39,392 nt of DNA from Bacteroidota bacterium (GTDB lineage Bacteria; Bacteroidota; Bacteroidia; Bacteroidales; VadinHA17). The translations under genes and the position numbers were made by a program. The stretch lies in contig JAKLDT010000010.1 of assembly GCA_022703405.1 (NCBI GenBank), positions 1 to 39,392 on the forward strand, written 5' to 3'. Shown here in pieces: positions 17,185 to 30,489 of the stretch. Every line of letters starts with the position of its first letter. The stretch's first letter is position 1. The notes below the pieces were generated by a model that had not been told where the DNA came from, searched no databases, and saw nothing but the letters and a program-made list of their open reading frames with translations.

Positions 17185-17604
17185 TTAATTCTTTTTTATA
17201 GTTGTTTCATATAAATCGCAAATACCATTCTTATCTGTATCCACAAATCTTTTGCCTCCAGGAGCCAATCCACGGCCTCTTCCTGGACCAAGTCCACGAC
17301 CATATGCAGGACCTAATCCACAACCTTGTCCTTGTGCAAGTCCCTGCCTGTTGCCCGGTGCTTGTGACCATGAGCCTCCACGACCTCCTCTGAAGCCATA
17401 ACCTCTACCCCATCCATTTCCTGGTCCCCGACTGCCAGATGCCTCAAAATTATCATAAATACCGTTATTATTGGAATCACTATAAGTTCCTCTTGGAACC
17501 TGAACATTATTCTGTTGATCCTGAACGACTGACTGGTCTTGTGCTGTTGCAGGTGTTGTCAAAGCTATGAATGATAAAACCGCTATAAAAAATACTGTTT
17601 TCAT
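17185..17604 (-). CDS. Exported Gly/Arg-rich protein with two calcium-loop motifs
   Basis: I do not recognise a named family. The start MKTVFFIAVLSF at 17604 is chosen over an upstream ATG at 17616 because it gives a clean signal peptide, cleaved near ATAQD. Two loops of EF-hand or dockerin type frame the protein: DSNNNGIYDNFE near the mature N terminus and DTDKNGICDLYE near the C terminus. Between them lies a low-complexity stretch of Gly, Arg, Pro and Gln (GRG, GLGP and similar). The central GR-rich part recalls the DUF5320-like protein at 28463-28690, which is also next to a DUF134 gene. It sits 23 bases before DUF134 copy 1. A periplasmic or secreted metal-binding role is my inference. 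Confidence 0.7.
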   Translation of the reverse strand: MKTVFFIAVLSFIALTTPATAQDQSVVQDQQNNVQVPRGTYSDSNNNGIYDNFEASGSRGPGNGWGRGYGFRGGRGGSWSQAPGNRQGLAQGQGCGLGPAYGRGLGPGRGRGLAPGGKRFVDTDKNGICDLYETTIKKN

Positions 17605-17636
17605 ATTTCGAACCATTTATTATAATTGTTTGTAAT

Positions 17637-17891
17637 TCAATTATTATTTGAAGATGACATATGTTTTTTCTCTGTCCATATGCTTCTTAAATCAGGATAA
17701 ATGAGATATCCGAAAAAAATTGCAGATATAGCCAGGACTATTTTCCCTGCGACACAGAAAGGGCCACAATAAAACTCTTCACCGAGACCAAAAAGACAGG
17801 TGGAACAACCTAAAATCGTCATTAGCACGTAATCAACAAAAAGTATTACAGGCAGGATAAAAAATACTTTGAAAAATAATGATGCTTTCAT
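17637..17891 (-). CDS. Small Cys-rich membrane protein, first gene of DUF134 operon 1
   Basis: This is a hypothetical protein of 84 residues with two hydrophobic segments. The loop between them is rich in cysteine (CSTC, then YCGPFC). The ATG at 17891 is preferred over the upstream ATG at 17930. The latter lies inside the palindromic operator, upstream of the -7 element, and so would not be in the transcript. With the promoter at 17907-17938 the leader would be only about 10 bases. Paired cysteines near the membrane suggest metal or disulfide chemistry, but this is inference. The exported Gly/Arg-rich protein and DUF134 copy 1 follow on the same strand. Confidence 0.65.
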   Translation of the reverse strand: MKASLFFKVFFILPVILFVDYVLMTILGCSTCLFGLGEEFYCGPFCVAGKIVLAISAIFFGYLIYPDLRSIWTEKKHMSSSNNN

Positions 17892-17906: not shown

Positions 17907-17938
17907 CAAAGGTAATGAACCTACGTTCATTATGCAAA
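17907..17938 (-). promoter_or_regulatory. Bacteroidota promoter of DUF134 operon 1
   Basis: On the minus strand, -33 TTTG (17938-17935) is followed after exactly 20 bases by -7 TACCTTTG (17914-17907), a perfect TAnnTTTG. The whole 32-base block matches the promoter at 29639-29670 at 27 positions. The spacer is filled by the palindrome at 17915-17930. Confidence 0.85.
17915..17930. promoter_or_regulatory. Operator palindrome ATGAAC-CTAC-GTTCAT
   Basis: Perfect 6-base arms surround a 4-base spacer, and the palindrome extends by one further matched pair (A/T) on the outside. It lies between the -33 and -7 elements, a position where a bound protein would block polymerase. Confidence 0.8.
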
Positions 17939-17971
17939 TAATGAAACATATATTTTAATGGATCAGATCAA

Positions 17972-18002
17972 AAAAAGGTGGCATTTTACTGGCCACCTTT
18001 TT
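17972..18002. terminator. Bidirectional terminator after peroxiredoxin gene
   Basis: AAAAAGGTGGC (17972-17982) is the perfect inverse complement of GCCACCTTTTT (17992-18002) across a 9-base loop. A/T tails on both sides make it usable on both strands. The peroxiredoxin gene ends 20 bases upstream on the minus strand, and the hairpin insulates it from DUF134 operon 1. Confidence 0.85.
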
Positions 18003-18021
18003 ACTTTCTTTCAGGTTTGGT

Positions 18022-18726
18022 TTATTTCTTTATTATCGTTTTCAATACTTTCTCTTTATCAAGCTTTTTGGTACAGAAGAACCAATCGTAACAATGCATT
18101 TCATCTTTCTTTTCCATACGTTCTTTTGCTACCCCACAAGAACCAGCAGTCGGTACAATAACATCGTCACCAGGTCGCCAGTCAGCGGGAAGTGCAACCG
18201 AGAATGCATCAGCAGTCTGCAAACCGATAATGACTCTGTAAAGCTCATCAAAATTACGCCCGAGACTGAGAGGATAGTAAATAATGGTACGAATGATTCC
18301 CTTTGGATCAATGAAGAATACTGCTCTAACTGCTTTTGTTGAGCTTTCCCCGGGCTGAAGCATTCCATAAGTTTTGGCTACCTCCATTGTTATATCCTCA
18401 ATTAGGGGGAATGTAACCTCAACATTCTTCATCCCTTTGTATTCTATTTTTTCCTTGATGGTACGCAACCAGGCAATATGGCTGTAGAGACCGTCTACCG
18501 ACAGGCCTACAAGTTTGCAGTTTGCTTCATTAAACTGTTTTTCCATGTTTGCAAATATCATGAACTCCGAGGTGCAAACTGGCGTAAAATCAGCAGGATG
18601 GCTAAACAGAATTACCCAGCTTCCTTTGTAATCTCCAGGGAAATTGATCTCCCCTTGTGTTGTGACAGCTTTAAAATCAGGTGCTTTTTCGCCAATTCTT
18701 GGCATCGAATAAACTTTTTCTTCCAT
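18022..18726 (-). CDS. Peroxiredoxin, Prx6/1-Cys-like archaeal type
   Basis: The enzyme should reduce hydrogen peroxide or organic peroxides. The 234-residue protein has the peroxidatic motif in HPADFTPVCTSEF with cysteine C51. Its long C-terminal domain, with the block DWRPGDDV near 182-189, is typical of Prx6-type enzymes. Further cysteines occur at C197, C212 and C218. The last two sit where the hyperthermophilic archaeal enzymes have their C-terminal cysteines, so a disulfide-forming cycle is possible. A promoter with -7 TAATTTTG lies upstream at 18772-18801, and a strong terminator follows. Its place in an iron-sulfur-rich island fits protection from peroxide. Confidence 0.9.
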   Translation of the reverse strand: MEEKVYSMPRIGEKAPDFKAVTTQGEINFPGDYKGSWVILFSHPADFTPVCTSEFMIFANMEKQFNEANCKLVGLSVDGLYSHIAWLRTIKEKIEYKGMKNVEVTFPLIEDITMEVAKTYGMLQPGESSTKAVRAVFFIDPKGIIRTIIYYPLSLGRNFDELYRVIIGLQTADAFSVALPADWRPGDDVIVPTAGSCGVAKERMEKKDEMHCYDWFFCTKKLDKEKVLKTIIKK

Positions 18727-18771
18727 AGTTAATTCCTTGTTTTGGTTATAATATATTTAATTGAATAATTT

Positions 18772-18801
18772 CAAAATTATTGGATACTCATTACCATCAA
18801 A
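18772..18801 (-). promoter_or_regulatory. Promoter of the peroxiredoxin gene
   Basis: On the minus strand, TTTG (18801-18798) and a perfect -7 TAATTTTG (18779-18772) are separated by 18 bases, slightly short of the usual 19-20. It lies 46 bases upstream of the start codon. Its spacer does not contain the ATGAAC-N4-GTTCAT palindrome. Confidence 0.6.
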
Positions 18802-18880
18802 ACACGACTAAGGGTTGTTTTAATTCTCTACTTAAAAGGATTCCTAAAATCCATATAAAAGTAATAATTATGTTTGATTT

Positions 18881-18896
18881 ATGAACGCATGTTCAT
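18881..18896. promoter_or_regulatory. Operator palindrome ATGAAC-GCAT-GTTCAT
   Basis: This is a perfect-arm copy of the palindrome found in both DUF134 promoters. It lies in the divergent region between the peroxiredoxin gene (start 18726) and the TrmO-like gene (start 19011). A TTTG sits 4 bases before it on the plus strand, but no good -7 element follows at the right distance. A weaker candidate promoter, TTTTG-N19-TGTGTTTG, is at 18948-18979. Confidence 0.65.
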
Positions 18897-19010
18897 AATA
18901 TTCCTTAGATTTACTTCGTTAATAATAAGCTGTCGGTGTGAGTAAAATTTTGTCAATCAAAAATATATTGATGTGTTTGCTGATGTGGGACTTTAATTAA
19001 GCCTGGAAAA

Positions 19011-19538
19011 ATGAAACAAATTTTCTTAATTTTATTATCCGGATATTTAATTATCCCATTAAAAGGACAGGAAACCATGAAACAGCAGATAGTTTACACA
19101 CCTGTTGGTGTTTTTCATACAGGATATACACAGGAAACCGGTGCTCCCCGCCAGGGAATCCTTGAGCCTGAGATAAAGGGATCTATAGAAATATTTCCTG
19201 AATATCGCAATGCACTTAAGTCACTGGAAATGTATGAATATATCATTGTGATCTATCATCTCGACAAGGCCGGTAAATGGAACGATATTGTCAAACCACC
19301 GGAATCTGATCCTGAAATATCTTTCGGACTTTTTGCCACACGAAGCCCGAACAGACCTAATCCTGTGGGGATAGCAACAATTAAGCTCGAGAAGATCGAA
19401 AATGGAATACTTCATGTTTCAGGGATTGATACTTTTGACGGAACTCCTGTTCTCGATATTAAGCCTTATCTGCCATCGATAGATGGTATTAAAAGTATCA
19501 AAAACGAGTCAATTGAAAAAAAACTGGGACTTCAATGA
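19011..19538 (+). CDS. TrmO/TsaA-like protein (UPF0066) with N-terminal signal-like extension
   Basis: The TrmO (YaeB/TsaA) family includes tRNA t6A37 N6-methyltransferases that use S-adenosylmethionine. Residues 25-175 match the beta-barrel domain: PVGVFHTGY, GAPRQG, a YEYIIVIYHLDKA block, and the family hallmark ATRSPNRPNPVG followed by DTFDGTPVLDIKPY. The first 23 residues (MKQIFLILLSGYLIIPLKGQ and on) look like a Bacteroidota signal peptide. An internal ATG at 19077 would give a plain cytoplasmic protein. A perfect operator palindrome lies upstream (18881) and another overlaps the stop codon (19535). I call the domain with confidence, but the cellular location and substrate are open. Confidence 0.8.
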   Translation: MKQIFLILLSGYLIIPLKGQETMKQQIVYTPVGVFHTGYTQETGAPRQGILEPEIKGSIEIFPEYRNALKSLEMYEYIIVIYHLDKAGKWNDIVKPPESDPEISFGLFATRSPNRPNPVGIATIKLEKIENGILHVSGIDTFDGTPVLDIKPYLPSIDGIKSIKNESIEKKLGLQ

Positions 19539-19550
19539 ACATTTGTTCAT
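19535..19550. promoter_or_regulatory. Operator palindrome ATGAAC-ATTT-GTTCAT
   Basis: This is a perfect-arm copy of the island's palindrome. It includes the stop codon of the TrmO-like gene and lies 37 bases before the start of the metallo-hydrolase gene. No clear Bacteroidota -33/-7 pair was seen around it. Confidence 0.6.
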
Positions 19551-19587
19551 ATCAAACAGCATAACGTAAAGGCTGATATAAAACTAT

Positions 19588-20367
19588 ATGAGAATTTCAG
19601 TATTAACAGAAAATCATGCAGGTTCTATTACTCTGGCAGAACATGGTTTATCATATCTGATTGAATCTGATAGTAAAAGAATTCTTTTTGACACGGGGCA
19701 GAGTGATATCTTTTTGAGAAATGCCGGGGTTATGAATATCAGTATGAGAAATATTGATATAGTTATTCTGAGTCATGGGCATTTCGACCACGGGAATGGA
19801 TTGGAATATTTGGAGGGAGGACGTTTAATCTGTCATCCAGGCTGCTTTGAAAGACGTTTCCGGGGAAAAGACAGATCGTACATGGGATTGAGAGATACTA
19901 AAGATGTACTGTCCCGGAAATTCGAGCTCATTACATCATCTGAACCGTATGAAATTTCAAAGAAGATATTCTTTCTGGGGGAAATCCCGCGGCTAACAGA
20001 TTTTGAATCAAATACAACTTCTTTTGTTTTTGAAAATGGTACACCTGACTATGTTTCAGATGATAGTGCAGTTGCCTTTATGTTACCTGAAGGTTTGTTT
20101 GTAGTAACCGGTTGCGGCCATTCAGGAATAGTAAATACACTTGAGTATTCAAAGAGAGTAACGGGAGTAAACAATCTATTTGGTATAATGGGAGGTTTTC
20201 ACCTGAAAGAAACAGATCTTCAGCTAAAAGAGACTATTAAATATCTTAAAACGAACAGAATCAACCATGTATATCCTTCTCACTGCACTGAACTTCCAGC
20301 ATTATCATCTTTCTATGATAATTTCAAAATCAGGAAGGTAAAGACCGGTGACATATTAGATTTCTGA
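19588..20367 (+). CDS. MBL-fold metallo-hydrolase (COG1237-like)
   Basis: The 259-residue protein has a metallo-beta-lactamase fold. The metal-binding motif HGHFDH gives H63, H65, D67 and H68. Further ligands are likely in GCGHSGI and in the late PSHCTE block. The N-terminal LTENHAG and FDTGQSD patterns match the COG1237 group, which includes enzymes related to dihydropteroate-type synthases of archaea and many uncharacterised hydrolases. No signal peptide is present. It follows the TrmO-like gene by 49 bases, and the operator palindrome at 19535-19550 lies between them. The substrate is unknown. Confidence 0.82.
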   Translation: MRISVLTENHAGSITLAEHGLSYLIESDSKRILFDTGQSDIFLRNAGVMNISMRNIDIVILSHGHFDHGNGLEYLEGGRLICHPGCFERRFRGKDRSYMGLRDTKDVLSRKFELITSSEPYEISKKIFFLGEIPRLTDFESNTTSFVFENGTPDYVSDDSAVAFMLPEGLFVVTGCGHSGIVNTLEYSKRVTGVNNLFGIMGGFHLKETDLQLKETIKYLKTNRINHVYPSHCTELPALSSFYDNFKIRKVKTGDILDF

Positions 20368-20442
20368 CAGAGTCTACGGTATCTGGTTTCTGATCTCTGC
20401 CGATGAAAATCATTTTCCGCGTCTGCAGTATAGCAATCTTAT

Positions 20443-21249
20443 TTATTTGACTTCGATCCTTGAAATTATCATTTCTGTAACCTGTTCAAATGCATTAACA
20501 ACAGTTTTGTTATTCTGGCTGAATACACTCAGTCCCTTTTCAGCAGCTGTACCTACTTCCAATACAAGTGGTATTTGTCCGAGCAAAACTGTATCAAACT
20601 CTTTCGCGAGTTTAAGTCCTCCTCCCTTGCCAAAAATGTAGTAAGTCTCATCAGGGTGTTTTTCCGGTGTAAACCATGACATATTTTCTATAATGCCAAG
20701 TATAGGGACATTAAGATCAGGGTTTTTGAACATTGATGTTGCCTTTCTTGCATCGTTCAGGGATATTTCCTGTGGTGTGGTCACTATTATTGCGCCCGCC
20801 AGTTTAAGTTTCTGAACAGTTGTAAGCTGAATATCGCTTGTCCCGGGAGGAAAATCAATGATCATATAGTCAATTTCTCCCCACTGTGTATCTTCAAAAA
20901 GCTGGGTCACAGCTTTGCCTGCCATTGGCCCCCTCCAGATCAGTGACTGACTTCGGTCAATAAAAAATCCGATTGAAATGATTTTTACGCCGTATTTGAT
21001 AACCGGGAAGATCATCTCTTTATCACCAAGGGCAGTTACATCAGGTTTTACATCCTCAATTCCGAACATTTTTGGTATTGACGGACCAAAAATATCCGCA
21101 TCAACCAGTGCCGTACTTAATCCGTTTCTTGCTAATGCAATCGCCAGGTTGGCGGCAACAGTTGATTTTCCCACTCCACCCTTACCCGAAGCCACTACAA
21201 TAATATTCTTTACGCCTTCCATAGGAAGTTTCTCAAATAGATCACTCAT
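20443..21249 (-). CDS. mrp: Mrp/NBP35-type P-loop ATPase
   Basis: Mrp proteins bind and transfer iron-sulfur clusters to apoproteins using a deviant Walker motif. Here GKGGVGKST lies at residues 22-30, followed by DADIFGPSIP and DFPPGTSDIQL, both diagnostic for Mrp. The usual CxxC that binds the cluster at the dimer interface is absent: where many family members have CPHC, this one reads FTPEKHPDETYYIFGKGG. There is also no N-terminal DUF59 domain. It is the last gene of the large minus-strand operon, 2 bases after the MinD-like gene. The partners suggest delivery of clusters, or of a related metal cofactor, within the ORP-like set. Confidence 0.9.
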   Translation of the reverse strand: MSDLFEKLPMEGVKNIIVVASGKGGVGKSTVAANLAIALARNGLSTALVDADIFGPSIPKMFGIEDVKPDVTALGDKEMIFPVIKYGVKIISIGFFIDRSQSLIWRGPMAGKAVTQLFEDTQWGEIDYMIIDFPPGTSDIQLTTVQKLKLAGAIIVTTPQEISLNDARKATSMFKNPDLNVPILGIIENMSWFTPEKHPDETYYIFGKGGGLKLAKEFDTVLLGQIPLVLEVGTAAEKGLSVFSQNNKTVVNAFEQVTEMIISRIEVK

Positions 21250-21251
21250 AA

Positions 21252-22121
21252 TTATTTATCATTTATTGTTTCGTTCCAAATTCTTTTTAATTCCATGCTT
21301 ATGACATTTGTTTTATCAAATTCTATTATTGTTTTACCCTGAACCATTGCTTCCACCATTTTTTTATCAAAGGGTATTAATCCTGCTACTTTTATTCCGT
21401 TTTGATTGCACCATTCATGGATCTGATCAGTCATTTCAGCATTAAGATCCCATTTATTTATAATTACGGAGGGTTTTCGATCCGATTTCAGGACTATTTC
21501 CGCTGCCCTCTTCAGGTCGTGTAATCCTGAAATAGTCGGTTCGGTCACAATTATTACTTTGTCGACACCGGTTATTGTTGAGATAACTGGACATCCTATA
21601 CCTGGAGGACCATCCAGTATTACAGTACCGAGATCAAACTTCTCAGAAACCTGTTTTGTCTTTTCTCTAACCATATTTACCAGTTTGCCGCTGTTCTCCT
21701 CACCAGGAGCAAGGCGACCATACACCAGCCTTCCATTTTTGAAAGAACCAGAGTATAATCTGCTTTTATCATTAGGAACCATTTTAATGGCATTTTCAGG
21801 GCATATCCTTGAGCAGAGAAAACAGCCGTCACATGATATCTCATCTATAATCACCCTGTTGTTCTGAGATGAGATTGCATCAAACCTGCAATAGTTTAAA
21901 CAAAGACCGCATCCGGAACATTTTTCATAATTTATTACAGCTTTGTAACCTGATATGAACGATTCTTCTTCTTCATCCGAAGGCTTAAAAAGCAGGTATA
22001 GATTTGCAGCATCCACATCACAGTCGGCAATTACGACTTCCCCATTTAATGTGGCAAATGCAGCGCTTATGCTCGATTTACCAGTTCCTCCTTTACCGCT
22101 GATAACTGCTATCTGCTTCAT
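21252..22121 (-). CDS. MinD-family ATPase with ferredoxin insert, copy 1
   Basis: This is a P-loop ATPase of the MinD/ParA group with an embedded 2x[4Fe-4S] ferredoxin domain. From the start MKQIAVISGKGGTGKSS the deviant Walker A is at about 9-16. Two cluster motifs follow near residues 70-110: CSGCGLCLNYC and CDGCFLCSRIC. ILDGPPGIGCPV and IIVTEPTISGLHDL are the later ATPase motifs. I chose the ATG at 22121 because it gives the 4-base ATGA overlap with the upstream gene; a start at 22160 would overlap it much further. Such pairs are found in ORP clusters of anaerobes, where they form a complex with NifX-like proteins. Confidence 0.88.
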   Translation of the reverse strand: MKQIAVISGKGGTGKSSISAAFATLNGEVVIADCDVDAANLYLLFKPSDEEEESFISGYKAVINYEKCSGCGLCLNYCRFDAISSQNNRVIIDEISCDGCFLCSRICPENAIKMVPNDKSRLYSGSFKNGRLVYGRLAPGEENSGKLVNMVREKTKQVSEKFDLGTVILDGPPGIGCPVISTITGVDKVIIVTEPTISGLHDLKRAAEIVLKSDRKPSVIINKWDLNAEMTDQIHEWCNQNGIKVAGLIPFDKKMVEAMVQGKTIIEFDKTNVISMELKRIWNETINDK

Positions 22122-22996
22122 TTCATCAAAACTTCGTCGTTTAATTCCTGCTTTATCCAATTACAAATGTTATAAAACTGAATCTCATAGTTCTTGTCAG
22201 AATCAGCAATAAGCCTTCCCTCAGAATAAATGTGGGCTATTTCCTGACTAAAAGGGACCTCTGCTAATATTGCTATATTATTATTTTTCAGCCATTTATA
22301 AATATCTTTATTGCCAAGGCCTGCACGATTAATAATGACTCCGAATGGTTTATCAATTTTTTTTAAGGTGTCAATGCTTTGTTTCAGATCACTTAAGCCA
22401 AATGGAGTAGGCTCAGTCACAAGAATTACATAGTCGGAAGCTGATACCGTTTGAATAAAAGGACATGCTGTTCCGGGGGGAGAATCAAGAATTGCAATTT
22501 CGGCCTTGTCGTTGATTTGTTTTATAGCAGCTTTTAAAACGGGAACTGGTGACATTACACCGACATTCATTCTTGCTTCGATGAGTACAGGCTTGTCATT
22601 GACTGAATAAAATTTAACAATACCCAATGAAACCGGTTTTTCTGTAATAGCGTCATATCTGCATGCAACACTGCATGCTCCACACCCATGACAAAGATCT
22701 TCTATTACATTTATTATTTTCATGGGAGGCAGGATGAATATCGCATTGAAATTGCAGTATTCGTGGCATTTCCCGCAAAAGGTACAGGAATCAGCGTTTA
22801 TGACCGGTACCAGTTTTGTTACTTCAAATGAACCGGTCTGTCTGGTTTTAAAAAAGGCGGCAGCATTTGGCGCTTCTGCATCGCAGTCAACCAGAATTGC
22901 ATCTACATTATTCTGCATGAGAGAATGAAAAATATTTGTTGCAACAAATGTTTTACCGGTTCCCCCTTTACCACTGGCTATGGCAATTTTAATCAT
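22118..22996 (-). CDS. MinD-family ATPase with ferredoxin insert, copy 2
   Basis: This protein of 292 residues has the same design as its downstream neighbour. Walker A is GKGGTGKTF near residues 9-17. The ferredoxin motifs are CTFCGKCHEYC and CHGCGACSVAC, and the later blocks are ILDSPPGTACPF and LVTEPTPFGLSDL. Sequence similarity between the two copies is clear but moderate, so the duplication is old, and the pair probably acts as a heterodimer. It overlaps the CGGC gene upstream by 8 bases and the next MinD gene by 4, which indicates translational coupling. Confidence 0.88.
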   Translation of the reverse strand: MIKIAIASGKGGTGKTFVATNIFHSLMQNNVDAILVDCDAEAPNAAAFFKTRQTGSFEVTKLVPVINADSCTFCGKCHEYCNFNAIFILPPMKIINVIEDLCHGCGACSVACRYDAITEKPVSLGIVKFYSVNDKPVLIEARMNVGVMSPVPVLKAAIKQINDKAEIAILDSPPGTACPFIQTVSASDYVILVTEPTPFGLSDLKQSIDTLKKIDKPFGVIINRAGLGNKDIYKWLKNNNIAILAEVPFSQEIAHIYSEGRLIADSDKNYEIQFYNICNWIKQELNDEVLMK

Positions 22997-23432
22997 AATT
23001 AAAGCGGGTTAATTCATCAGTAAGGGTGGGTTTAACAGATTCTGAAAGAAATTCACTGTGCCATGTATCCAGGTTTTTATGTGTGAGATAGTATTTCTGG
23101 GGAATGGGATGTGTTCCGTAAATTACTTTCATTCCATATTTCTCTTCTATGAAGTTCTTAAAATGCTCCATATAAGGACAGGGCGGATAACCCACAAGGA
23201 ATCCGGTTGCAAAATGGATATGAGTTATTCCGTTCTTTTTCATTTCTTCAGGAGCATATTCTATATTGCCTCCAGGACAGCCTCCACATGTTGTGAATCC
23301 TGCTATTTCTATCTCACAATTTCTGTAAATGGAGAATGCGCCTTCCCTGTTAGCAGCTGATCTGAAGCATTTTCCGCCAGAACAAGTGTTGTATCTGTCA
23401 CAGATAAAAATTCCTATTTTGATTTTCTCCAT
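22989..23432 (-). CDS. CGGC domain-containing protein
   Basis: The CGGC domain (Pfam PF08821) is a small putative metal-binding domain named for the CGGC motif. Here TTCGGCPGG lies at residues 47-55, with further cysteines at C11, C17, C22 and C39. GIFICDRYNTC at the N terminus and GYPPCPYMEHF near residue 80 match the usual layout. The 147-residue length fits a single domain plus a short tail. Function in the family is unknown; binding of a metal or a cluster is inferred from the cysteines. It is encoded directly before the two MinD ATPases in the same operon. Confidence 0.85.
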   Translation of the reverse strand: MEKIKIGIFICDRYNTCSGGKCFRSAANREGAFSIYRNCEIEIAGFTTCGGCPGGNIEYAPEEMKKNGITHIHFATGFLVGYPPCPYMEHFKNFIEEKYGMKVIYGTHPIPQKYYLTHKNLDTWHSEFLSESVKPTLTDELTRFNYD

Positions 23433-23439
23433 AATTCAA

Positions 23440-23703
23440 TTATTTACCAGTTAGCTCTTTCAGTGTATCTGATATTCTCTTTGGTGGAAAACAGGCCTTG
23501 CCTGTGCTCTTTCTGACAGAAGCATTTATTACAGGTAAAATAACATCCTCTTCTTCTATCTCATTGTAGGGTATTCCAATGCTCCTGAAAAGCTCCCAGC
23601 GGGCTGTTTCATAATATTTAAAATAGTTTGAGTGATGCATAAAACCAATCTTGTCAGTATCAGAATAAGATACCCTAAAAGCTGTTTCATTGGTAATCAT
23701 CAT
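23440..23703 (-). CDS. Acyl-CoA thioesterase (4HBT) remnant with internal deletion
   Basis: Residues 1-62 match the start of 4-hydroxybenzoyl-CoA-type thioesterases: FRVSYSDTDKIGFMHHSNYF with the catalytic-type aspartate at 15 or 17, then YYETARWELFRSIG. The text then jumps to STGKACFPPKRISDTLKEL, which looks like the end of the same family. About 50 residues of the central hot-dog sheet are missing, yet the frame is kept. The whole product is 87 residues where about 135 is normal. The junction lies near base 23517. It overlaps the flavoprotein gene by 3 or 4 bases. I regard it as a decaying gene or a small remodelled protein. Confidence 0.65.
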   Translation of the reverse strand: MMITNETAFRVSYSDTDKIGFMHHSNYFKYYETARWELFRSIGIPYNEIEEEDVILPVINASVRKSTGKACFPPKRISDTLKELTGK

Positions 23704-25055
23704 CTGTTCCTCATTTTGCCTGCAATTATTTCAGCAGCCTTTATCAAAGGATAGCCTGCAGGTGAAGCTGTCAGACAGGGATGAGTTCCAATCTGAGAAG
23801 TAAGTAATGAATTGACTGTCATTCTGTTCTGGATTGCGAGTCCAATTACATTGGTAAGTTCTCCGGCGCTTAATCCTCCAATTACTTCACCTCCGATTAT
23901 TACACCTGACTGACGGGCTGCTATGAGTTTGACAAGTTGCTTATGTGCATCTGGAAGGTTTCCGGGATGACGGTCGATACCTTCAAATGTTCCTGTAATG
24001 GAATCAATGCCTTCTGCCTTTGCCCTGGCTTCCGTTACGCCAGCTGTACCGAAACCGGTGTTCCCAATCGCCGTGGAATAAATAGCAATGGTACCGCTGA
24101 AGGTCTTGACAACATTGAGATTAAAAAGATTCATTCCGGCTATTCTTGCTTCAGCACATGCAGTGGAAGCAAGCATTGTTGAGACTCTGGCACGGGTAAC
24201 AAAATCACGTTTCTGGGCACAATCACCGACAGCAAAAATATCTTTTATATGTGTTCGCATGTATTCGTCTACAGCAATGAAACCGCTTTCATCGACATAA
24301 ATCTCAGACTTTCTGGCGAGCTCCACATTAGGTTTATAACCAACAGAAAGAATTATTGCGTCAGACTCAATAACATCTCCATTTTCAAGTTTAACTGATT
24401 CTACTTTCGTTTTCCCAAGTACTTCTTTAATTCCATTTCCGGTTACTATGTTTACCCCCCTGATTGCTAGGATTTCTTTTATTTTCTTTGACAGTTCAAC
24501 ATCGAAAGCAAGCATTAAGATATCAGGCAGCTTTTCTACAAGGGTAACTTCGTGCTCCTGTTTTATAAGTTCATCAGAAAATTCCACTCCGATGAAGCCT
24601 GCTCCAACAACAATTATCTTCTTGCATGAAGCAAGTTTATTCTTCATTTCATCAAGATAGATCCTGTCTTTGGGAATGACGAACACATTTTCTTTATCTC
24701 CACCTGCCAGCCATTTGGGTTTGACGGGCATTGATCCGGTTGCCAGCACAAGCTTATCATACTGAATTGTTTCTCCGCTGGCAAGATCAACAGTTTTTAT
24801 TTCCTTGTTTATTTTAACAACTTCATCAACAATCGATTCTATGCCAGCTTTCTCCAGCATTGCATCTACCGGCATTAAATTCTGATCACTGCAGCTGAGT
24901 GTTCCGAAAATATACGGGATCCCGCATGGGACCATCATTTCTTTTTGTTTCTTAACTAAAATAAAATTCTTCTTTGGCCATGAAGATTTTCCTGTAAGTG
25001 CAGCAACCATACCTGCAGCACTTCCTCCGATTACTAAAACATCAGTCGTTTTCAT
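23700..25055 (-). CDS. FAD-dependent pyridine-nucleotide disulfide oxidoreductase, CoA-disulfide reductase-like
   Basis: The 451-residue flavoprotein belongs to the class with a single redox-active cysteine (CoA-disulfide reductase, NADH oxidase, persulfide reductase). The FAD-binding GGSAAG is at 10-15, and the redox cysteine C44 stands in VPCGIPYIFG. The NAD(P)H-binding motif VVGAGFIGVEF lies near 150-160, and the second FAD motif IFAVGDCAQ near 270. The C-terminal dimerisation domain ends with SQIGTHPCLTASPAGYPL. It follows HdrB- and HdrC-like genes, so transfer of electrons from NAD(P)H to a disulfide or persulfide is a plausible role. The exact substrate cannot be read from sequence. Confidence 0.87.
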   Translation of the reverse strand: MKTTDVLVIGGSAAGMVAALTGKSSWPKKNFILVKKQKEMMVPCGIPYIFGTLSCSDQNLMPVDAMLEKAGIESIVDEVVKINKEIKTVDLASGETIQYDKLVLATGSMPVKPKWLAGGDKENVFVIPKDRIYLDEMKNKLASCKKIIVVGAGFIGVEFSDELIKQEHEVTLVEKLPDILMLAFDVELSKKIKEILAIRGVNIVTGNGIKEVLGKTKVESVKLENGDVIESDAIILSVGYKPNVELARKSEIYVDESGFIAVDEYMRTHIKDIFAVGDCAQKRDFVTRARVSTMLASTACAEARIAGMNLFNLNVVKTFSGTIAIYSTAIGNTGFGTAGVTEARAKAEGIDSITGTFEGIDRHPGNLPDAHKQLVKLIAARQSGVIIGGEVIGGLSAGELTNVIGLAIQNRMTVNSLLTSQIGTHPCLTASPAGYPLIKAAEIIAGKMRNR

Positions 25056-25134
25056 ATTTATACTTTAATTGTTATGTTCATTATTATGTTTTTACATTGT
25101 AAGATGTGATATGTCATTGAAAATTGCAGTCGAT

Positions 25135-26202
25135 TTAAACGCATTTCAATACCTGTGGATGTTCCGGAGTTCCGATATATTCACCATTAAATCCTTTGTA
25201 TTTTTGATGCGGGTCATATTGTATTCCAAGCTTTTCAAGCAATGGCTCAACTGAAACCTGGTGAGTTTGCAATCCTATATCCCATGGATTATATCCCAAA
25301 AGAAGCCCGGTGATCTCTTCATAAGTTAAAACAGGGATGCCATAACCGTTTTCATCATAAGTTATGCCTTCCTGTTCAGCAATCACATATTGCCATCGAT
25401 CGAGAAAAAAGGTACAACCAGGACAGTTTGCGATAATCAGATCAGGTTTGAAAGGGAGCATCGAGTCAAATTTCTTTTTGGAATTTGATACAGAATAACC
25501 CCTGTTTGATTTTAGCAGATATTGTCTGAATCCAAAACCACAGCAATGTCTTCTTTCGGGATAATCAACCTGCTGGCCTCCCCATTCATCAATCAGTCCT
25601 GCCAACACGTATGGATACTCAGCTCCGCCTATCCCATGTGATGGAAAGATCTTTGCATAATGACATCCAATGTGATCAACAACCTTTAGAGGTTTCCCTG
25701 TGTTTGCATTTACAAGTCTGTATTTAAATGTTGCGGCAATCTCTTTCCGGAATTTATAGATTACGTCACTTGCATGAACAAGATTTTTTGGAATCGAGAA
25801 TGTCATCCCAGTTGCCAGCTTAAGAGCCTCCCGCGTGTTCTGTTCTGTTTCTGGAAAATGTTTCCAGGTCTCAAGTATTTCCACATAAATGCCAAATGAT
25901 GTAACACAGGAGACAACAAAATTTTCATATCCGGCTTCGTTCATCAGGGCAAACTGGCGAGCGACCACCGTCATTATTGTCTCCATCGGTATTAATCCTG
26001 AATGATATGCTATCCCTGTGCAGGTGGTTTGCTTTATATCGTCAAAAATATCTTTACCCAGAACATCTCTCAAAATAGTTAAATACAGATTTTCTGCAGC
26101 AGGGAATATATTTTGCCTGATACAGCTGCGGGCAAAATAGTAATGATCATCTGCTATTTCTTTCTGGTATGCAGCCCAAATTTCATTTTTCCGGGATATC
26201 AC
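25135..26202 (-). CDS. HdrB-like heterodisulfide reductase subunit (CCG domains)
   Basis: HdrB binds two noncubane [4Fe-4S] clusters through two CCG domains. The second CCG domain is complete here: C180, then C220-C221, then C260-x-x-C263. The first is degenerate: C27 is kept, but the CC pair is reduced to C61 (TTCTG) and the CxxC to C99 (SCVTSFG). The total is 355 residues. The degenerate first half suggests that only one noncubane cluster is formed. The HdrC-like gene lies 17 bases upstream on the same strand, and the disulfide oxidoreductase gene lies 79 bases downstream. HdrA is not encoded in the window. Confidence 0.82.
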   Translation of the reverse strand: MISRKNEIWAAYQKEIADDHYYFARSCIRQNIFPAAENLYLTILRDVLGKDIFDDIKQTTCTGIAYHSGLIPMETIMTVVARQFALMNEAGYENFVVSCVTSFGIYVEILETWKHFPETEQNTREALKLATGMTFSIPKNLVHASDVIYKFRKEIAATFKYRLVNANTGKPLKVVDHIGCHYAKIFPSHGIGGAEYPYVLAGLIDEWGGQQVDYPERRHCCGFGFRQYLLKSNRGYSVSNSKKKFDSMLPFKPDLIIANCPGCTFFLDRWQYVIAEQEGITYDENGYGIPVLTYEEITGLLLGYNPWDIGLQTHQVSVEPLLEKLGIQYDPHQKYKGFNGEYIGTPEHPQVLKCV

Positions 26203-26219
26203 AGGATATGTTTTTAGTT

Positions 26220-26903
26220 TTATTTATTATACAGATACCTGAAGTACTCATCTTTACCTTCTTTAAAATCCTTATCAAGTTCTTTTGCCTTTACAGAGGA
26301 ATATTGTTCTATTTTTTCGAACCTTTTCGTGCCTCCTGTTACATCAAATATCTTTTTCAGGTCATCAAGAGATTTTTTCGATGTTCTGCGAAGAGTACCT
26401 GCCTGGTCTTTGTTATAACTTGTATTAAGCCGCTGCAGGAGTGATTGGCTGTTTTCCCTTATCCAATTCCATACCGGACCCTGTTCAGGATACATTTCAA
26501 GGTCAACTTCATCAATATAGATACAATAGCCATATTTCAGAATATGATCACCCACAGTTCGCTTAACAGCTAATTGTTTTCTGCCCTGTTCGCTTTCAAT
26601 AAAAAAGCCGGTTTCAATTGATAAGCCTCTTAATGCCTGAATCACATAGCAGGGAGTATTTCCACGCGGGCATCTGGTTTTGCAGGAAAGACATTCGCCG
26701 CATCTCCATATCTCGTCACCTTTTAATAATTTTTCAAGGGCAGTTTCATCTTTCTCCTGTACAGTGTTGAGTATTCTTCGGGGATCGTAATCGCTTACTT
26801 CAGCTGCCGGGCATATTGCGGTGCAAACACCACAATTGAAGCAGGCTTTCAGACCTTCTCTGTAACGGATATCCTTCTCCAATTCTTCATAAAGTGTAGG
26901 CAT
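26220..26903 (-). CDS. HdrC-like iron-sulfur subunit
   Basis: The 227-residue protein has two [4Fe-4S] motifs of the HdrC/GlpC type: C21-x2-C24-x2-C27-x3-C31 and C68-x2-C71-x2-C74-x3-C78, each followed by P. The last 100 residues are charged and helical (DEVDLEMYPEQGP and beyond) and longer than in minimal HdrC. No transmembrane segment is visible, so the complex is probably soluble. The HdrB-like gene follows after 17 bases. It should pass electrons between a donor, possibly a ferredoxin or the nearby flavoprotein, and HdrB. Confidence 0.87.
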   Translation of the reverse strand: MPTLYEELEKDIRYREGLKACFNCGVCTAICPAAEVSDYDPRRILNTVQEKDETALEKLLKGDEIWRCGECLSCKTRCPRGNTPCYVIQALRGLSIETGFFIESEQGRKQLAVKRTVGDHILKYGYCIYIDEVDLEMYPEQGPVWNWIRENSQSLLQRLNTSYNKDQAGTLRRTSKKSLDDLKKIFDVTGGTKRFEKIEQYSSVKAKELDKDFKEGKDEYFRYLYNK

Positions 26904-27080
26904 ATATATGCTTCTTTTGAATCTTCAATAATCTTTTGATCTTATAAAACTGTTAATCAGAAATTTCTTTATTAACATGCTGAATTTATCAATGAAAAGA
27001 ACTCTGTCAGGATGATCAAGTTCATTTACTTCTGCTGCATGTCTCCTGAGAAACTATAAGATTATGGGCACTATCATTTG

Positions 27081-28025
27081 TCAAACCGCCCAGTGATAAT
27101 CACGTATGAAAAACTTATTTCCTTCATAAATGATTGATTTAATCAGGTGCTGATTGATCAGAGAGTCGACAACAGAATATGCTGCGCCATCATTCTGAAG
27201 TAAAATATACAGAGCGTCCTCTCTTAATGGATGAACTGCAGTAATATTCAGAATATCCTCATAAATGTTGCCCGTATAACCTGTATCTGTACCTTCAAAA
27301 CCTGTCAGAAATTCTGTTTTTATATGCATCTTATTGAAAGCTTGCCAGGCCAGATTCAACATTGCAGCATCAGGTAGTTTTACAAATTTCTCTACAGGAG
27401 GACGAATTGGAACAGCCAGATATGCTATCTCCGGATTAATGCTTTTTACTATTTCGGCCAGCGATGAAATATTTTCAGCTGAATCATTTATGCCATTAAC
27501 AATCATAGTCTCGGTGCATAATCTCCCCTGGTAGCCATCCCTGAAAAGCTTAATATTGCTTAGAATATTTTCAAAGTCCAGATCCGCAACCGGCCTGTTA
27601 ATTAAGTGCCATGTTATAATATCGCCTGCATCAATTTTAAAAGATACCCAATCTGCAAGTTGAAGGTCTTCCTTAACAGAATCAAAGCATAATAAAGATG
27701 CATTGGAAATGACAGCTACAGGTATGCCTGTTTCTTTTAATAATTTGATTGCTTCCCCGAGATTTTCATCAAGTGTGGGTTCTCCGTTTGAAACAAAAGT
27801 CAGATAATCAGGATAATTATTCTTATTTAACTTTTTCAGGTGTTTTAAAACCCTTTCATAAATGAATTCAGGTTTATAAAAATATTCTCTCTTGCAGTTT
27901 TTCTTTATTGTCTTTCCAACCTGGCAGTAGTTACAACTGTAGGAACAAGTCTTAGGCGGGATTATATTGTTAATTCCAAGGCTTTTCCCTAATCTCCTTG
28001 ATTGTACCGGACCGAATGTTATCAT
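27081..28025 (-). CDS. Radical SAM protein, COG0731-like
   Basis: The enzyme should bind a [4Fe-4S] cluster and S-adenosylmethionine. The motif is C27-x3-C31-x2-C34 in KTCSYSCNYCQVG. The GPVQSRRLGKSLG start and the TFVSNGEPTLD block are typical of the COG0731 group, which is related to the wybutosine enzyme TYW1 but has no assigned role in bacteria. The C-terminal 70 residues (after about 245) look like a winged helix and are not part of the barrel. It lies 41 bases downstream of a NifX-like gene. It may modify or assemble the cofactor bound by that protein, by analogy with NifB; this is inference. Confidence 0.82.
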   Translation of the reverse strand: MITFGPVQSRRLGKSLGINNIIPPKTCSYSCNYCQVGKTIKKNCKREYFYKPEFIYERVLKHLKKLNKNNYPDYLTFVSNGEPTLDENLGEAIKLLKETGIPVAVISNASLLCFDSVKEDLQLADWVSFKIDAGDIITWHLINRPVADLDFENILSNIKLFRDGYQGRLCTETMIVNGINDSAENISSLAEIVKSINPEIAYLAVPIRPPVEKFVKLPDAAMLNLAWQAFNKMHIKTEFLTGFEGTDTGYTGNIYEDILNITAVHPLREDALYILLQNDGAAYSVVDSLINQHLIKSIIYEGNKFFIRDYHWAV

Positions 28026-28066
28026 TTCGAATTGTTAGACTTTTTTTAAATTGTGACCTCCTATAA

Positions 28067-28405
28067 TCAGTGGTCACAATAATTTGCTCCTGCAACCAGC
28101 GTATCATCCAGAAGATCATTTACAAGATCCCTGGGCAATTTTATCGGTGCTCCTGCAAAAACATTAATATTTTGCTGATTGAATAAGTTAATTGCTCTCT
28201 GACCCATACCGCCGGCAATAACATCGGTTACCCCTTTCTCTGCCAGCCAGGCTGGAAGTAATCCAGGTTCATGGGGTGGTGGTGTGACAAATGTTTCGTC
28301 TGTAATTGAATTGTCCTCAGTATTTATAATTGCAAACTGCTGGCAATGGCCAAAATGAGAGCATAATGTTCCGTTCTCAAGCGGAACAGCAATTCTTTTT
28401 TTCAT
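28067..28405 (-). CDS. NifX/NifB-C-like dinitrogenase cofactor-binding family protein, copy 1
   Basis: This small protein of 112 residues belongs to the MTH1175/ORP fold group. The family includes nitrogenase cofactor carriers and the orange protein that holds a Mo-Cu-S cluster. The N-terminal block IAVPLENGTLCSHFGHCQQF carries two cysteines and a histidine at the usual ligand site. GVTDVIAGGMGQRAINLF is the second conserved block. The end contains a further cysteine and histidine (NYCDH). No nitrogenase genes are in the window, so a nitrogenase role is not supported. It is preceded in the operon by a DUF5320-like gene. Confidence 0.87.
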   Translation of the reverse strand: MKKRIAVPLENGTLCSHFGHCQQFAIINTEDNSITDETFVTPPPHEPGLLPAWLAEKGVTDVIAGGMGQRAINLFNQQNINVFAGAPIKLPRDLVNDLLDDTLVAGANYCDH

Positions 28406-28462
28406 AGTTTTATTATTAGAAATATATACAGTTTAAGAAGAATAAATGTCAATTTCTGAATC

Positions 28463-28690
28463 TCAGAATCCACCCCTGAAACGATTTTGTCGTCCCATTC
28501 CCCTGCCTCTTCCAATCCCTCTTAAACCATAATCTTCTCTATTGAAATATCCATAAGGCTTCATGTTTTGAGCCTCAGTGTTCGTGTTAGCAGAGTTTCC
28601 GGCATTTCTGCCATAATTTGTGCATCTTCCCATTCTTCGTCCCGTCATCGGTCCGTTCCCTTCAGGGCCTGTCTGATTTAAGTTTGGCAT
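28463..28690 (-). CDS. DUF5320-like Gly/Arg-rich small protein
   Basis: The 75-residue protein begins with MPNLNQTGPEGNGPMTGRRM followed by GRC. This is the characteristic start of DUF5320 proteins, which are regularly found beside NifX-like genes. The C terminus is Gly/Arg-rich (GLRGIGRGRGMGRQ). A single cysteine is at residue 23. Function is unknown. It lies between the two NifX-like genes. Its Gly/Arg-rich tail is similar in style to the exported protein at 17185-17604. Confidence 0.8.
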   Translation of the reverse strand: MPNLNQTGPEGNGPMTGRRMGRCTNYGRNAGNSANTNTEAQNMKPYGYFNREDYGLRGIGRGRGMGRQNRFRGGF

Positions 28691-28703
28691 AATAACCTCC
28701 GTT

Positions 28704-29021
28704 TTAATTGTTTAGCATATTGATTACTTCAGTAATTGTTTTTTCAGGCTGTTTTAATACTATCATCTGGATTTTTAAGCTATCAAGCAATGTTTTAATC
28801 TTTATTCCGAATTCTCCTGAAATGATTTTTTTTACATTTCTTGAAGCGACGAGCTGAACAGATGCTGGACCGGCGCCTTCCTGTGCCTCCTTGTTAGGAT
28901 TGGGAAGGAATTCTATTCCCCTGGTCTCAGTGTCATAAATGGCAAAGTAGGAGCAACGGCCAAAACGCTGATCAAGCTTGCTCTCAAGACTGTTGCTGAC
29001 ACATGTAATAGCAATTTTCAT
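28704..29021 (-). CDS. NifX/NifB-C-like dinitrogenase cofactor-binding family protein, copy 2
   Basis: This 105-residue paralogue has IAITCVSNSLESKLDQRFGR followed by CSYFAIYD as the N-terminal block, and VKKIISGEFGIKIKTLL as the second block. It differs from copy 1 by lacking the HFGHC site, having RFGRC instead, and by the absence of the C-terminal Cys-His end. The two proteins therefore probably bind cofactor differently. It lies 18 bases downstream of DUF134 copy 2 and 13 bases upstream of the DUF5320-like gene, so all are read together. Confidence 0.85.
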   Translation of the reverse strand: MKIAITCVSNSLESKLDQRFGRCSYFAIYDTETRGIEFLPNPNKEAQEGAGPASVQLVASRNVKKIISGEFGIKIKTLLDSLKIQMIVLKQPEKTITEVINMLNN

Positions 29022-29039
29022 TTTTCAGTAATTATGGGT

Positions 29040-29615
29040 TTAAAAATTCTCTGTTTCTTTCCTGACCATTTTGCTTCCACATTCAGGACAAATTTCTTCC
29101 CTGCATGGCTGGCCGAGTTGGTGAGGAGATTCATGACCACACGAGGTGCATAAACAAACCTCAGAGCAACGCCTGTTTGTATCTTCTATTCTGTTCTTGT
29201 AAGGTTCAAAATTCTTGAAATCTGTTCCACTGCAGAGAGGACAGGCTTTTATCTCCTCCTGTTTTTCAGGATTGTTGAAATTGCAGCCACAGGTATTGCA
29301 GGTATACCAATCGCTGTCAAAATAAATCTTGCCTCCTTCAATAATTATCTGTTTTCCCAGAACAAGTGCTTCTGCAATTTTTTGCCTTGCCCTGGAATAA
29401 ATCCTGGTTAGTGTAGGCCGTGAAACATTCATAATTAGTGAAGCCTGAATGTGATTAAGCATTTCAAAATCACACAACCTTATTGCTTCATATTCTTCAA
29501 GGTTTAGAAAAATGCTTTGCACAGGTTCTGATCCTGCTTTTTTCCCATAAGGTTTTAATCCTGAAATCACAGGAGGATTACTTATTTTCCTTAATTTGAA
29601 TGGTCTTGGCGACAT
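29040..29615 (-). CDS. DUF134 (UPF0251) DNA-binding protein with added zinc ribbons, copy 2
   Basis: The first 105 residues align with copy 1 at 16757-17161. The recognition region MNVSRPTLTRIYSRA (about 62-76) differs from that of copy 1 at only a few positions. The remaining 85 residues add cysteine pairs of zinc-ribbon type: CNTC, CPLC, CTSC and CPEC. Total length is 191 residues. It is the first gene of the large minus-strand operon, and its promoter (29639-29670) is almost the same as that of the operon holding copy 1. Autoregulation and cross-regulation are the simplest reading. The extra zinc ribbons may sense metal or redox state (inference). Confidence 0.87.
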   Translation of the reverse strand: MSPRPFKLRKISNPPVISGLKPYGKKAGSEPVQSIFLNLEEYEAIRLCDFEMLNHIQASLIMNVSRPTLTRIYSRARQKIAEALVLGKQIIIEGGKIYFDSDWYTCNTCGCNFNNPEKQEEIKACPLCSGTDFKNFEPYKNRIEDTNRRCSEVCLCTSCGHESPHQLGQPCREEICPECGSKMVRKETENF

Positions 29616-29620
29616 AAATT

Positions 29621-29636
29621 ATGAGCAATGGTTCAC
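29621..29636. promoter_or_regulatory. Degenerate second operator ATGAGC-AATG-GTTCAC
   Basis: It matches ATGAAC-N4-GTTCAT at 10 of 12 arm positions. It lies between the start codon and the -7 element of DUF134 copy 2, over the likely transcription start. Its centre is 26 bases from the centre of the main operator. Confidence 0.45.
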
Positions 29637-29638
29637 TA

Positions 29639-29670
29639 CAAAGATAATGAACTTATGATCATAATGCAAA
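29639..29670 (-). promoter_or_regulatory. Bacteroidota promoter of DUF134 operon 2
   Basis: On the minus strand, -33 TTTG (29670-29667) is followed after exactly 20 bases by -7 TATCTTTG (29646-29639), a perfect TAnnTTTG. The 32-base block matches the promoter at 17907-17938 at 27 positions, including TTTGCAT at one end and GTTCATTA plus CTTTG at the other. Confidence 0.85.
29647..29662. promoter_or_regulatory. Operator palindrome ATGAAC-TTAT-GATCAT
   Basis: This is the same palindrome as at 17915-17930 with one arm mismatch (GATCAT instead of GTTCAT). It is placed identically between the -33 and -7 elements. Confidence 0.75.
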
Positions 29671-29781: not shown

Positions 29782-30489
29782 ATGGCAAATGATTATTTCA
29801 GTTTCAAGCAGTTTACAATATGGCAGGACAGGTCGGCTTTCAAAGTGGGAACTGATGGTGTCCTCCTTGGAGCCTGCGCAGATGTTTCAGCTGCAAAGAG
29901 AATACTTGACATAGGCTCAGGGACAGGTCTGATAGCTCTTATGCTGGCTCAGAGAAGCCAGGCTGAGATTGTGGCCATTGAGCCTGATCATGATTCATAC
30001 CTTCAGTGCTGTGAAAATATTAACAATAGCCCGTGGAAGAACAGGATAACTGTATATGAATCAGCTCTTCATGATTTTAGAAGTGTAGAAAAGTATGACC
30101 TTGTAGTTACAAATCCTCCTTATTTTTCAGGATCACTTGTCAATCCCGATTACAGGAAGTCAGTAACACGCCATGATATCAGTCTCAGTTCAACGGATAT
30201 TCTCAAAAGTCTTGATTCACTGTTGAATGAAGAAGGTTATTTGCAGCTTATTCTGCCGTATGCTGAAGGGAATATCTTTCTTGCTGAAGCTGTTGAATAT
30301 GGTTTTTATTGCCATGATTTATTGAAAGTAAAGCCTATGCCAACTTCTGAAGTCCGGAGGCTTGTTATGCGCTTTGGCCGGAAAAGGGTCAGGACTTCTG
30401 AAAAGTTCCTTACAATAGAGTTTGGCAGAAGGCACGAGTTTACCGATGAGTACATGAAGCTTACAGGAGATTTCTACCTTAAGTTTTGA
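29782..30489 (+). CDS. trmN6: tRNA1(Val) (adenine(37)-N6)-methyltransferase
   Basis: The enzyme methylates A37 of a valine tRNA using S-adenosylmethionine. The N-terminal block FKQFTIWQDRSAFKVGTDGV, followed by LLGA, is diagnostic of the TrmN6 (YfiC) family. The SAM-binding motif is ILDIGSGTGLIALMLAQ (41-57). The catalytic NPPY is at 111-114, followed by FSGSL. The 235-residue length is normal. A -7-like element TATATTTG is at 29753-29760. Its end overlaps the end of the convergent hybrid two-component gene by 11 bases. Confidence 0.92.
   Translation: MANDYFSFKQFTIWQDRSAFKVGTDGVLLGACADVSAAKRILDIGSGTGLIALMLAQRSQAEIVAIEPDHDSYLQCCENINNSPWKNRITVYESALHDFRSVEKYDLVVTNPPYFSGSLVNPDYRKSVTRHDISLSSTDILKSLDSLLNEEGYLQLILPYAEGNIFLAEAVEYGFYCHDLLKVKPMPTSEVRRLVMRFGRKRVRTSEKFLTIEFGRRHEFTDEYMKLTGDFYLKF

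Follow-up and report, generated by a model that had tools for sequence, protein, structure and literature searches.

The window analyzed here is a 39,392-nucleotide (nt) stretch (positions 1–39,392 of contig JAKLDT010000010.1, assembly GCA_022703405.1) from a Bacteroidota bacterium of the VadinHA17 lineage, and it carries two genes, designated D1 and D2, that encode proteins of the DUF134 family (PF02001), which occurs in bacteria and archaea and is annotated as a domain of unknown function. Taken as a whole, it is highly probable that DUF134 proteins are DeoR-like dimeric autorepressors of NifX/MinD/Mrp metal-cluster operons and that they bind the palindrome ATGAAC-N4-GTTCAT. For the binding of this palindrome considered separately, confidence is very high, and a mainly repressing mode of action is likely. 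The putative operator and the predicted specificity code described below would be new for PF02001.

Two promoters on the minus strand of the window, at 17938–17907 (promoter 1, of the D1 operon) and at 29670–29639 (promoter 2, of D2), had a common layout, namely, TTTG, 4 nt, a 16-nt palindrome, and then TAnnTTTG. Promoter 1 read TTTG-CATA-ATGAACGTAGGTTCAT-TACCTTTG, with a perfect ATGAAC-N4-GTTCAT (operator 1, ATGAACCTACGTTCAT, 17915–17930) between TTTG at 17938–17935 and TACCTTTG at 17914–17907. Promoter 2 read TTTG-CATT-ATGATCATAAGTTCAT-TATCTTTG, with a one-mismatch palindrome (operator 4a, 29647–29662) between TTTG at 29670–29667 and TATCTTTG at 29646–29639. The promoters were identical at 27 of 32 bases, and in the 10 nt outside them only 4 and 3 positions were identical; the next best 32-mer of the window matched promoter 1 at 22 bases, and every other one at 19 or fewer. 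Thus, the first-pass annotation of this DNA was correct as to the coordinates, strand and base count of the two promoters, the 20-base spacer between TTTG and a perfect TAnnTTTG, and the palindrome held in that spacer, with one mismatch in the second case.

Three sites were found in addition to those of the first-pass annotation: perfect palindromes at 18881–18896 (operator 2, between a peroxiredoxin gene and trmO, with TTTG 4 nt before the operator when read toward trmO) and at 19535–19550 (operator 3), and a weaker second site with two mismatches at 29621–29636 (operator 4b), 26 nt downstream of operator 4a in the D2 promoter. The window therefore contained three perfect copies (17915, 18881 and 19535) and a one-mismatch copy (29647), and at up to two mismatches 10 matches were found versus 2.73 expected. 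The centre of operator 3 was 45 nt before a metallo-β-lactamase (MBL)-fold gene, and this position was kept in three loci of relatives, where the palindrome lay 46 nt before the homologous gene (the distance in L079 was taken from the scan, and the MBL-fold genes of L080 and L097 were assigned by likeness). An operator pair at a distance of 26 nt was present in 21 of the 245 DUF134 entries scanned, 17 of these being among the 21 genes of the MSPRP/MAPRP type, D2 of the window included, and no such pair occurred in the reversed upstream sequences used as a control. A pair at 30 nt was found in five DUF134 genes, all of one subtype.

Both D1 (16757–17161, minus strand, 134 amino acids (aa)) and D2 (29040–29615, minus strand, 191 aa) encode helix-turn-helix (HTH) proteins, as had been annotated at the outset, and both matched PF02001 well above the cut-off of 27 bits (76.5 bits, E = 2.4 × 10−21, and 74.6 bits, E = 1 × 10−20, respectively). 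The proteins are paralogues with nearly identical recognition helices, MNVSRPTFTRIY and MNVSRPTLTRIY, in agreement with the earlier description; the motif is SRPTFTR in D1 (residues 62–68) and SRPTLTR in D2. D1 ends in C-terminal CxxC pairs, and D2 has two Cys-rich segments that by eye resemble zinc ribbons. UPF0251 and COG1342 are presumably synonyms of DUF134/PF02001. Searches of mostly non-subscription literature yielded no function or binding site of DUF134 and no text naming it as a regulator, and the operator strings were absent from the literature searched; apparent matches in PMC10434189 and PMC8459023 concerned DUF1349 and DUF1343, and a UPF0251 gene was listed among secondary mutations in PMC5886521.

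The first-pass annotation had made its proposal dependent on the conservation of the palindrome upstream of DUF134 genes in relatives. The set of relatives comprised 116 genomes, that of the window included, of which 64 had a DUF134 gene and 52 did not, and the upstream set comprised 94 DUF134 genes (92 listed from relatives and the two of the window). The palindrome was conserved, being found with at most one mismatch within 400 nt upstream of 70 of the 94 genes. In an unbiased screen of inverted repeats over 93 upstream sequences (4096 half-sites × 13 spacings = 53,248), ATGAAC with a spacing of 4 ranked first and was exact in 30 of the 93; the entries ranked just below it (17, 7, 7 and 5) represented this site or its tandem read in a shifted register, and an unrelated repeat first appeared with a count of 3. 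In random stretches of the same loci, ATGAAC/4 averaged 0.66 and the top-scoring repeat, whichever it was, 1.98. The 64 genomes with DUF134 contained 84 perfect sites (control, 7) and the 52 genomes without it 12 (control, 8); at least one perfect site was present in 43 of 64 and 11 of 52 genomes, respectively.

Perfect sites in relatives also preceded genes for MBL-fold, DUF5320, NifX-like and DUF4405 proteins, for a methyltransferase together with a Crp-type regulator, and for an ArsP_2-type exporter. The DUF5320 genes of relatives started 27–135 nt from the centre of a perfect palindrome (L080 from the scan; L079, L082, L104 and L133 by likeness). Of the further targets suggested earlier, NifX-like genes were indeed preceded by the palindrome in relatives, while a site directly before a MinD gene was not seen in the loci read. 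Perfect sites inside long genes of relatives (e.g., L054, L061, L064, L069, L070, L174, L175 and L177) were treated as background. It should be noted that one genome of the set (G115) contained nine perfect palindromes, four of which shared the core GGCC; they may represent a repeated element and not operators, because the one site read (L049:1501–1516) sits within a longer inverted repeat.

In the host genome (3.43 Mb, 75% complete), exactly three perfect palindromes were found, all within the window (control pattern, 0), and the two DUF134 genes above the family cut-off also lay there, with one further weak match below it. At two mismatches, 229 palindromes were found versus 143 for the control, and loose matches are therefore mostly noise. 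The six remaining one-mismatch sites of the genome, each of which falls within an open frame 129 to 524 codons long (counted from stop to stop), were taken as chance occurrences and rejected as further chromosomal targets.

The position of the operator relative to the promoter elements was also conserved. Among 77 sites with distinct flanks upstream of DUF134 genes of relatives, TAnnTTTG directly followed the site in 39, versus 97 of 36,188 positions in the same upstream sequences, and TTTG stood exactly 4 nt before it in 28. Two further sets extended the comparison: a scan of named genomes, from which the best 80 of the 570 confirmed stretches with DUF134 were kept, representing many phyla, and a phylum set of 70 loci (30 supplied with the search output and 40 selected by hand among the listed matches). 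In other phyla, a TATAAT-like box overlapped the last three bases of the operator at 22 of 35 sites, six of the 80 named loci, from Bacteroidota or close to them, being left out of this count. Around 38 sites of all 80 named loci, 27 pairs of TTGACA-like and TATAAT-like elements were identified, with a spacer most commonly of 17 nt (15 pairs). At the 21 sites of the phylum set, TTTG occurred 2 nt before the site in 14, and TAnnTTTG followed the site at none of the offsets tested. Two promoter types that are unrelated to each other thus have the operator in the same slot, between their elements, which is the placement expected of a repressor; the operator also lies within the promoter of DUF134's own unit, as in autorepressors.

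The recognition motif across DUF134 was SRxT[FL]xR, and the residues at its positions 6 and 7 varied together with bases of the half-site. With a finder blind to base 5 (ATGA-N-C), Thr at position 6 was accompanied by A in 138 of 152 arms and Gly by G in 49 of 58 arms (at most one mismatch); the first run covered 174 genes, of which 4 had a motif that could not be read and 34 lacked a site at two mismatches. Since this finder at two mismatches also matched 475 of 2,797 control stretches, the test was repeated at one mismatch with the phylum set included. The 245 entries included 7 with an unreadable motif and 106 without a site, and the other 132 were used; 29 of these rows were dropped because of unequal arms (14 Thr, 9 Gly and 1 Ser) or Ala (5), a gene being scorable when it had Thr, Ser or Gly at position 6 and two equal arms. 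All 103 scorable genes were concordant (67 Thr/Ser with A and 36 Gly with G). A finder blind to bases 3, 4 and 5, which found a site in 154 of 255 entries versus 153 of 2,099 control stretches, revealed that 224 of the 274 arms with Arg at position 7 had G at base 3, and that 34 of 34 arms with Asn, Lys or Ser had T there. These 34 arms came from 17 genes, 12 of which were second copies picked by hand from a single family (f66) of the window's phylum, so that the independent events are few; the other five came from another family of that phylum (one), Clostridia (three) and an E. coli plasmid (one). Six genes of the Asn/Lys/Ser class had no site by this rule, namely four on gammaproteobacterial plasmids, one from Clostridia and one that is truncated, and GCATATGCC-like repeats were visible in several of these site-less genes.

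Variant motifs were found with variant palindromes: MG[IV]SRPTFAR with ATGAGA-N4-TCTCAT in three genes, SRGT[IV]QR with TTGTGCATATGCACAT in two genes (the third gene of this class, L311, having none), and SRSTFTR with TGCAC half-sites in several genes. In trees built with the motif masked, the residue and the base each changed three times, and the three independent pairs all agreed, one of them on well-supported branches. These data suggest a two-position code, in which residue 7 would set base 3 (Arg, G; Asn, Lys or Ser, T) and residue 6 would set base 5 (Thr or Ser, A; Gly, G).

The AlphaFold2 model of D1 (mean predicted local distance difference test score, 78.7) had helices at residues 36–47, 52–58 and 63–83, with the motif opening the third; the HTH of the D2 model was similar, and parts of its N-terminus and tail were of low confidence. 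The top Foldseek neighbours of the D1 model included many sigma factor region 4 domains and DeoR, all with E of at least 0.063, and therefore the link to DeoR rests on the sequence profile. When a profile of 61 DUF134 proteins was compared with the PDB, Bacillus subtilis DeoR (PDB 7bhy and 8r7y) gave the only matches below 0.01 (two entries, E = 1.4 × 10−5 and 2.5 × 10−4), over 38 residues in which SRPTVSR was aligned to SRPTFTR. By this profile, DUF134 has the DeoR-type HTH DNA-binding domain of the SorC/DeoR family, with a tri-helical fold and SRPT[FL]TR in place of SRPTVSR. Meanwhile, unlike SorC/DeoR proteins, it has no Pfam match to the C-terminal phosphosugar-binding (NagB-like) domain of about 250 residues, in place of which there is a short Cys-rich tail or, in some proteins, a NifX-type domain. 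Although sigma region 4 domains were among the structural neighbours, DUF134 proteins have no sigma region 2, and their sites are palindromic.

According to PMC11229326, the DeoR half-operator ATTGAACAAAATTTCAAT has the form TGAA-N6-TTCA, which ATGAAC-N4-GTTCAT fits with the same 6-nt gap; R34 and R39 are reported to contact bases, the partners of R39 in the 3.7 Å structure of the full-length protein being T14 and G4, and a motif Arg is thus placed on the G of TGAA. The authors of that study note that the contacts are not visible with high confidence, and in an earlier structure of the domain R39 of one chain touched the backbone only (PMC11229326). R34 and R39 would be the two Arg residues of SRPTVSR, provided that the deposited chain has five extra residues, and G4 would correspond to base 3 of the DUF134 half-site, which is T where the last Arg is replaced. 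The DeoR–DNA contacts and the DUF134 covariation are independent lines of evidence. The earlier proposal that DUF134 proteins bind the palindrome is supported by its conservation in relatives, the helix–operator covariation and the DeoR–DNA precedent, and from these we strongly infer binding.

On this basis, DUF134 proteins would be dimeric HTH transcription factors with a DeoR-like DNA-binding domain. The N-terminus of the recognition helix (SRxT[FL]xR) of each protomer would be placed on one half-site ATGA[A/G]C, the dimer covering ATGAAC-N4-GTTCAT. Since the palindrome fills the space between the promoter elements, a bound dimer would block RNA polymerase. D1 and D2 would repress themselves and, because their helices are nearly the same, probably each other, as well as trmO and the MBL-fold gene, forming a local regulon for metal-cluster (NifX/MinD/Mrp) proteins; dimerization, repression and cross-regulation are inferred less firmly than binding. 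The signal, a matter of speculation, would probably be the state of a metal or Fe–S centre, which would be sensed by the C-terminal Cys-rich part or by a NifX-type partner.

Several observations weigh against DUF134 proteins being autorepressors at this palindrome. It was missing, at 400 nt and one mismatch, upstream of 24 of the 94 DUF134 genes. These included D1 of the window, which is the third gene of its own operon, one gene without upstream sequence and another with only 205 nt of it, eight genes with a site at two mismatches and a few with a variant palindrome; in five genes of the Thr-helix MPNR/MIRH type, nothing closer than three to five mismatches was found. Operators 2 (18881) and 3 (19535) had no clear −7 box. 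A genome rated 100% complete (G040) had a perfect site before a NifX-like gene (L173:402–417) and no DUF134 match at 1 × 10−6. Two perfect sites lay outside the expected regulon: a promoter-like one followed by TATATTTG before a class-III aminotransferase gene (L103:2420–2435), and one beside a histidine-phosphatase gene with TATATTTG pointing away (L178:6004–6019). Ala at position 6 had no single form of site, as the GAGA form was absent from the Ala-type genes of G105 and G097:C3, and in another phylum three genes with Ala had GAGC or mixed arms. All 27 Arg/Gly-type genes read from f66 had no site within 350 nt at one mismatch; a looser candidate at −464 to −692 in 9 of them was seen without a control. 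Finally, the three switches in the residue–base tree test are too few to reach significance on their own.

A dual or activating role must also be considered, in which DUF134 proteins would bind the site and activate transcription, or alternate between activating and repressing it, as MerR proteins do. In MerR promoters, the regulator is bound between promoter elements separated by a stretched spacer of 19–20 nt. The DUF134 operator likewise lies between the elements, and the Cys-rich C-termini could sense metals; however, the ordinary 17-nt spacer, the commonest one around the operators of other phyla, with 20 nt in only 3 of the 27 pairs, speaks against activation of this kind. The tandem second operator, which lies past the −7 element on the side of the start codon, also fits poorly with it, and DeoR, the nearest solved relative, is a repressor (PMC11229326). 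We regard a MerR-like role as unlikely.

Still less probable, to the point of being hardly expected, is that LexA, a Crp/Fnr-type protein or some other regulator binds the palindrome and that the DUF134 genes are mere targets. In Gram-positive bacteria, the LexA box has GAAC-N4-GTTC as its core, which the palindrome contains, and a Crp-type regulator gene shares a site with the methyltransferase gene in two loci of relatives (L144, scanned, and L170, by likeness). Against this, bases 3 and 5 of the operator follow residues 7 and 6 of the DUF134 motif across phyla, and perfect sites are near background in genomes without DUF134. LexA was rejected as the binder in the host, whose 75% complete genome gave 0 matches to the LexA DNA-binding domain PF01726. 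The likeness of the two promoters could in principle result only from copying along with the DUF134 gene, as D1 and D2 are paralogues and their promoters are so alike. Yet the likeness ends at the promoter–operator, the gene order differs between the operons, and the site also occurs before unrelated genes and is conserved across phyla; duplication as the cause is contradicted by the differing flanks and the conservation outside the pair, and its probability is negligible. Binding and repression by DUF134 proteins remain the preferred reading.

The D1 operon begins with a gene at 17637–17891 (minus strand) for a small Cys-containing protein that by eye is of membrane type and has no Pfam match. 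Its start is likely at 17891, the mechanical ATG at 17930, inside the palindrome, being unlikely. Between this gene and D1 is a gene at 17185–17616 (minus strand) for a Gly-rich protein with a signal-like N-terminus (by eye) and no Pfam or NCBIfam match; near its end there is a calcium-loop-like motif, DTDKNGICDLYE. The trmO/tsaA-type gene (19011–19538, plus strand) starts 122 nt beyond the centre of operator 2, and the divergent peroxiredoxin gene (18022–18726, minus strand), 162 nt from that centre, is a possible target; the MBL-fold metallohydrolase gene under operator 3 occupies 19588–20367 (plus strand). Downstream of D2, on the minus strand, the unit continues with genes for a NifX-like protein (Nitro_FeMo-Co; 28704–29021), a DUF5320 protein (28463–28690), a second NifX-like protein (Nitro_FeMo-Co, with a partial match to NF041136, MrpORP; 28067–28405) and a radical SAM protein. 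After a gap of 177 nt, which may hold another promoter, there follow CCG-domain and ferredoxin-domain (heterodisulfide-reductase-like) genes, a flavin adenine dinucleotide oxidoreductase gene and a thioesterase gene, and at the far end the genes for a CGGC protein, two MinD-type ATPases with ferredoxin motifs and an Mrp/NBP35 ATPase (20443–23432, minus strand), which are possible distal members of the D2 transcription unit.

Elsewhere in the window, two neighbouring similar open reading frames (ORFs) were present on the plus strand, at 15330–15869 (179 aa, DUF2400/PF09674) and 15915–16685 (256 aa), the first of which looks like a shortened copy of the second. A one-piece ORF of 1463 aa at 30479–34870 (minus strand), which by eye combines a histidine kinase, a response regulator and an AraC-like end, overlaps the end of the ORF at 29782–30489.

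The association of DUF134 with NifX-type genes extended to plasmids, for which 189 records with a DUF134 match were obtained, 126 of them in Klebsiella and Citrobacter. Among the 10 records read, two of which had no annotation at DUF134, the gene was beside or near a NifX-type gene in the five from Gammaproteobacteria, plasmids of Aeromonas, Dongshaea, Klebsiella, E. coli and Salinivibrio, and a Peptoclostridium plasmid had the order DUF134, NifX, ATPase, ATPase, MrpORP. DUF134 was fused to a Nitro_FeMo-Co domain in one relative (L089) and in two Clostridia. The orange protein (ORP) operons of Desulfovibrio vulgaris (PMC6345978) resemble the window in their clustered genes, which encode a pair of ferredoxin-type ATPases, a protein of the NifX type and an Mrp protein; those operons have a sigma54-dependent promoter, whereas the like gene set of the window lies with DUF134 and the operator. 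The same study reports binding of a 3Fe-4S cluster by the Di-Nase (NifX-type) domain of MrpORP, and therefore a cluster-dependent signal is a reasonable guess. A broader proposal, that DUF134 proteins are metal-cluster-sensing repressors across phyla with a two-position DNA code and that their signal is the loading state of a fused or adjacent NifX-type cluster protein, is put forward tentatively, with somewhat less than even confidence.

Thus, the putative operator, the predicted two-position specificity code and the regulon would turn DUF134 into a testable regulator family, in which the natural Thr/Gly and Arg/Asn variants provide a prediction that is cheap to check by single-residue swaps in vitro. 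The same elements would offer a way into the NifX/MinD/Mrp (orange-protein-type) metal-cluster systems of anaerobes, which are poorly understood.

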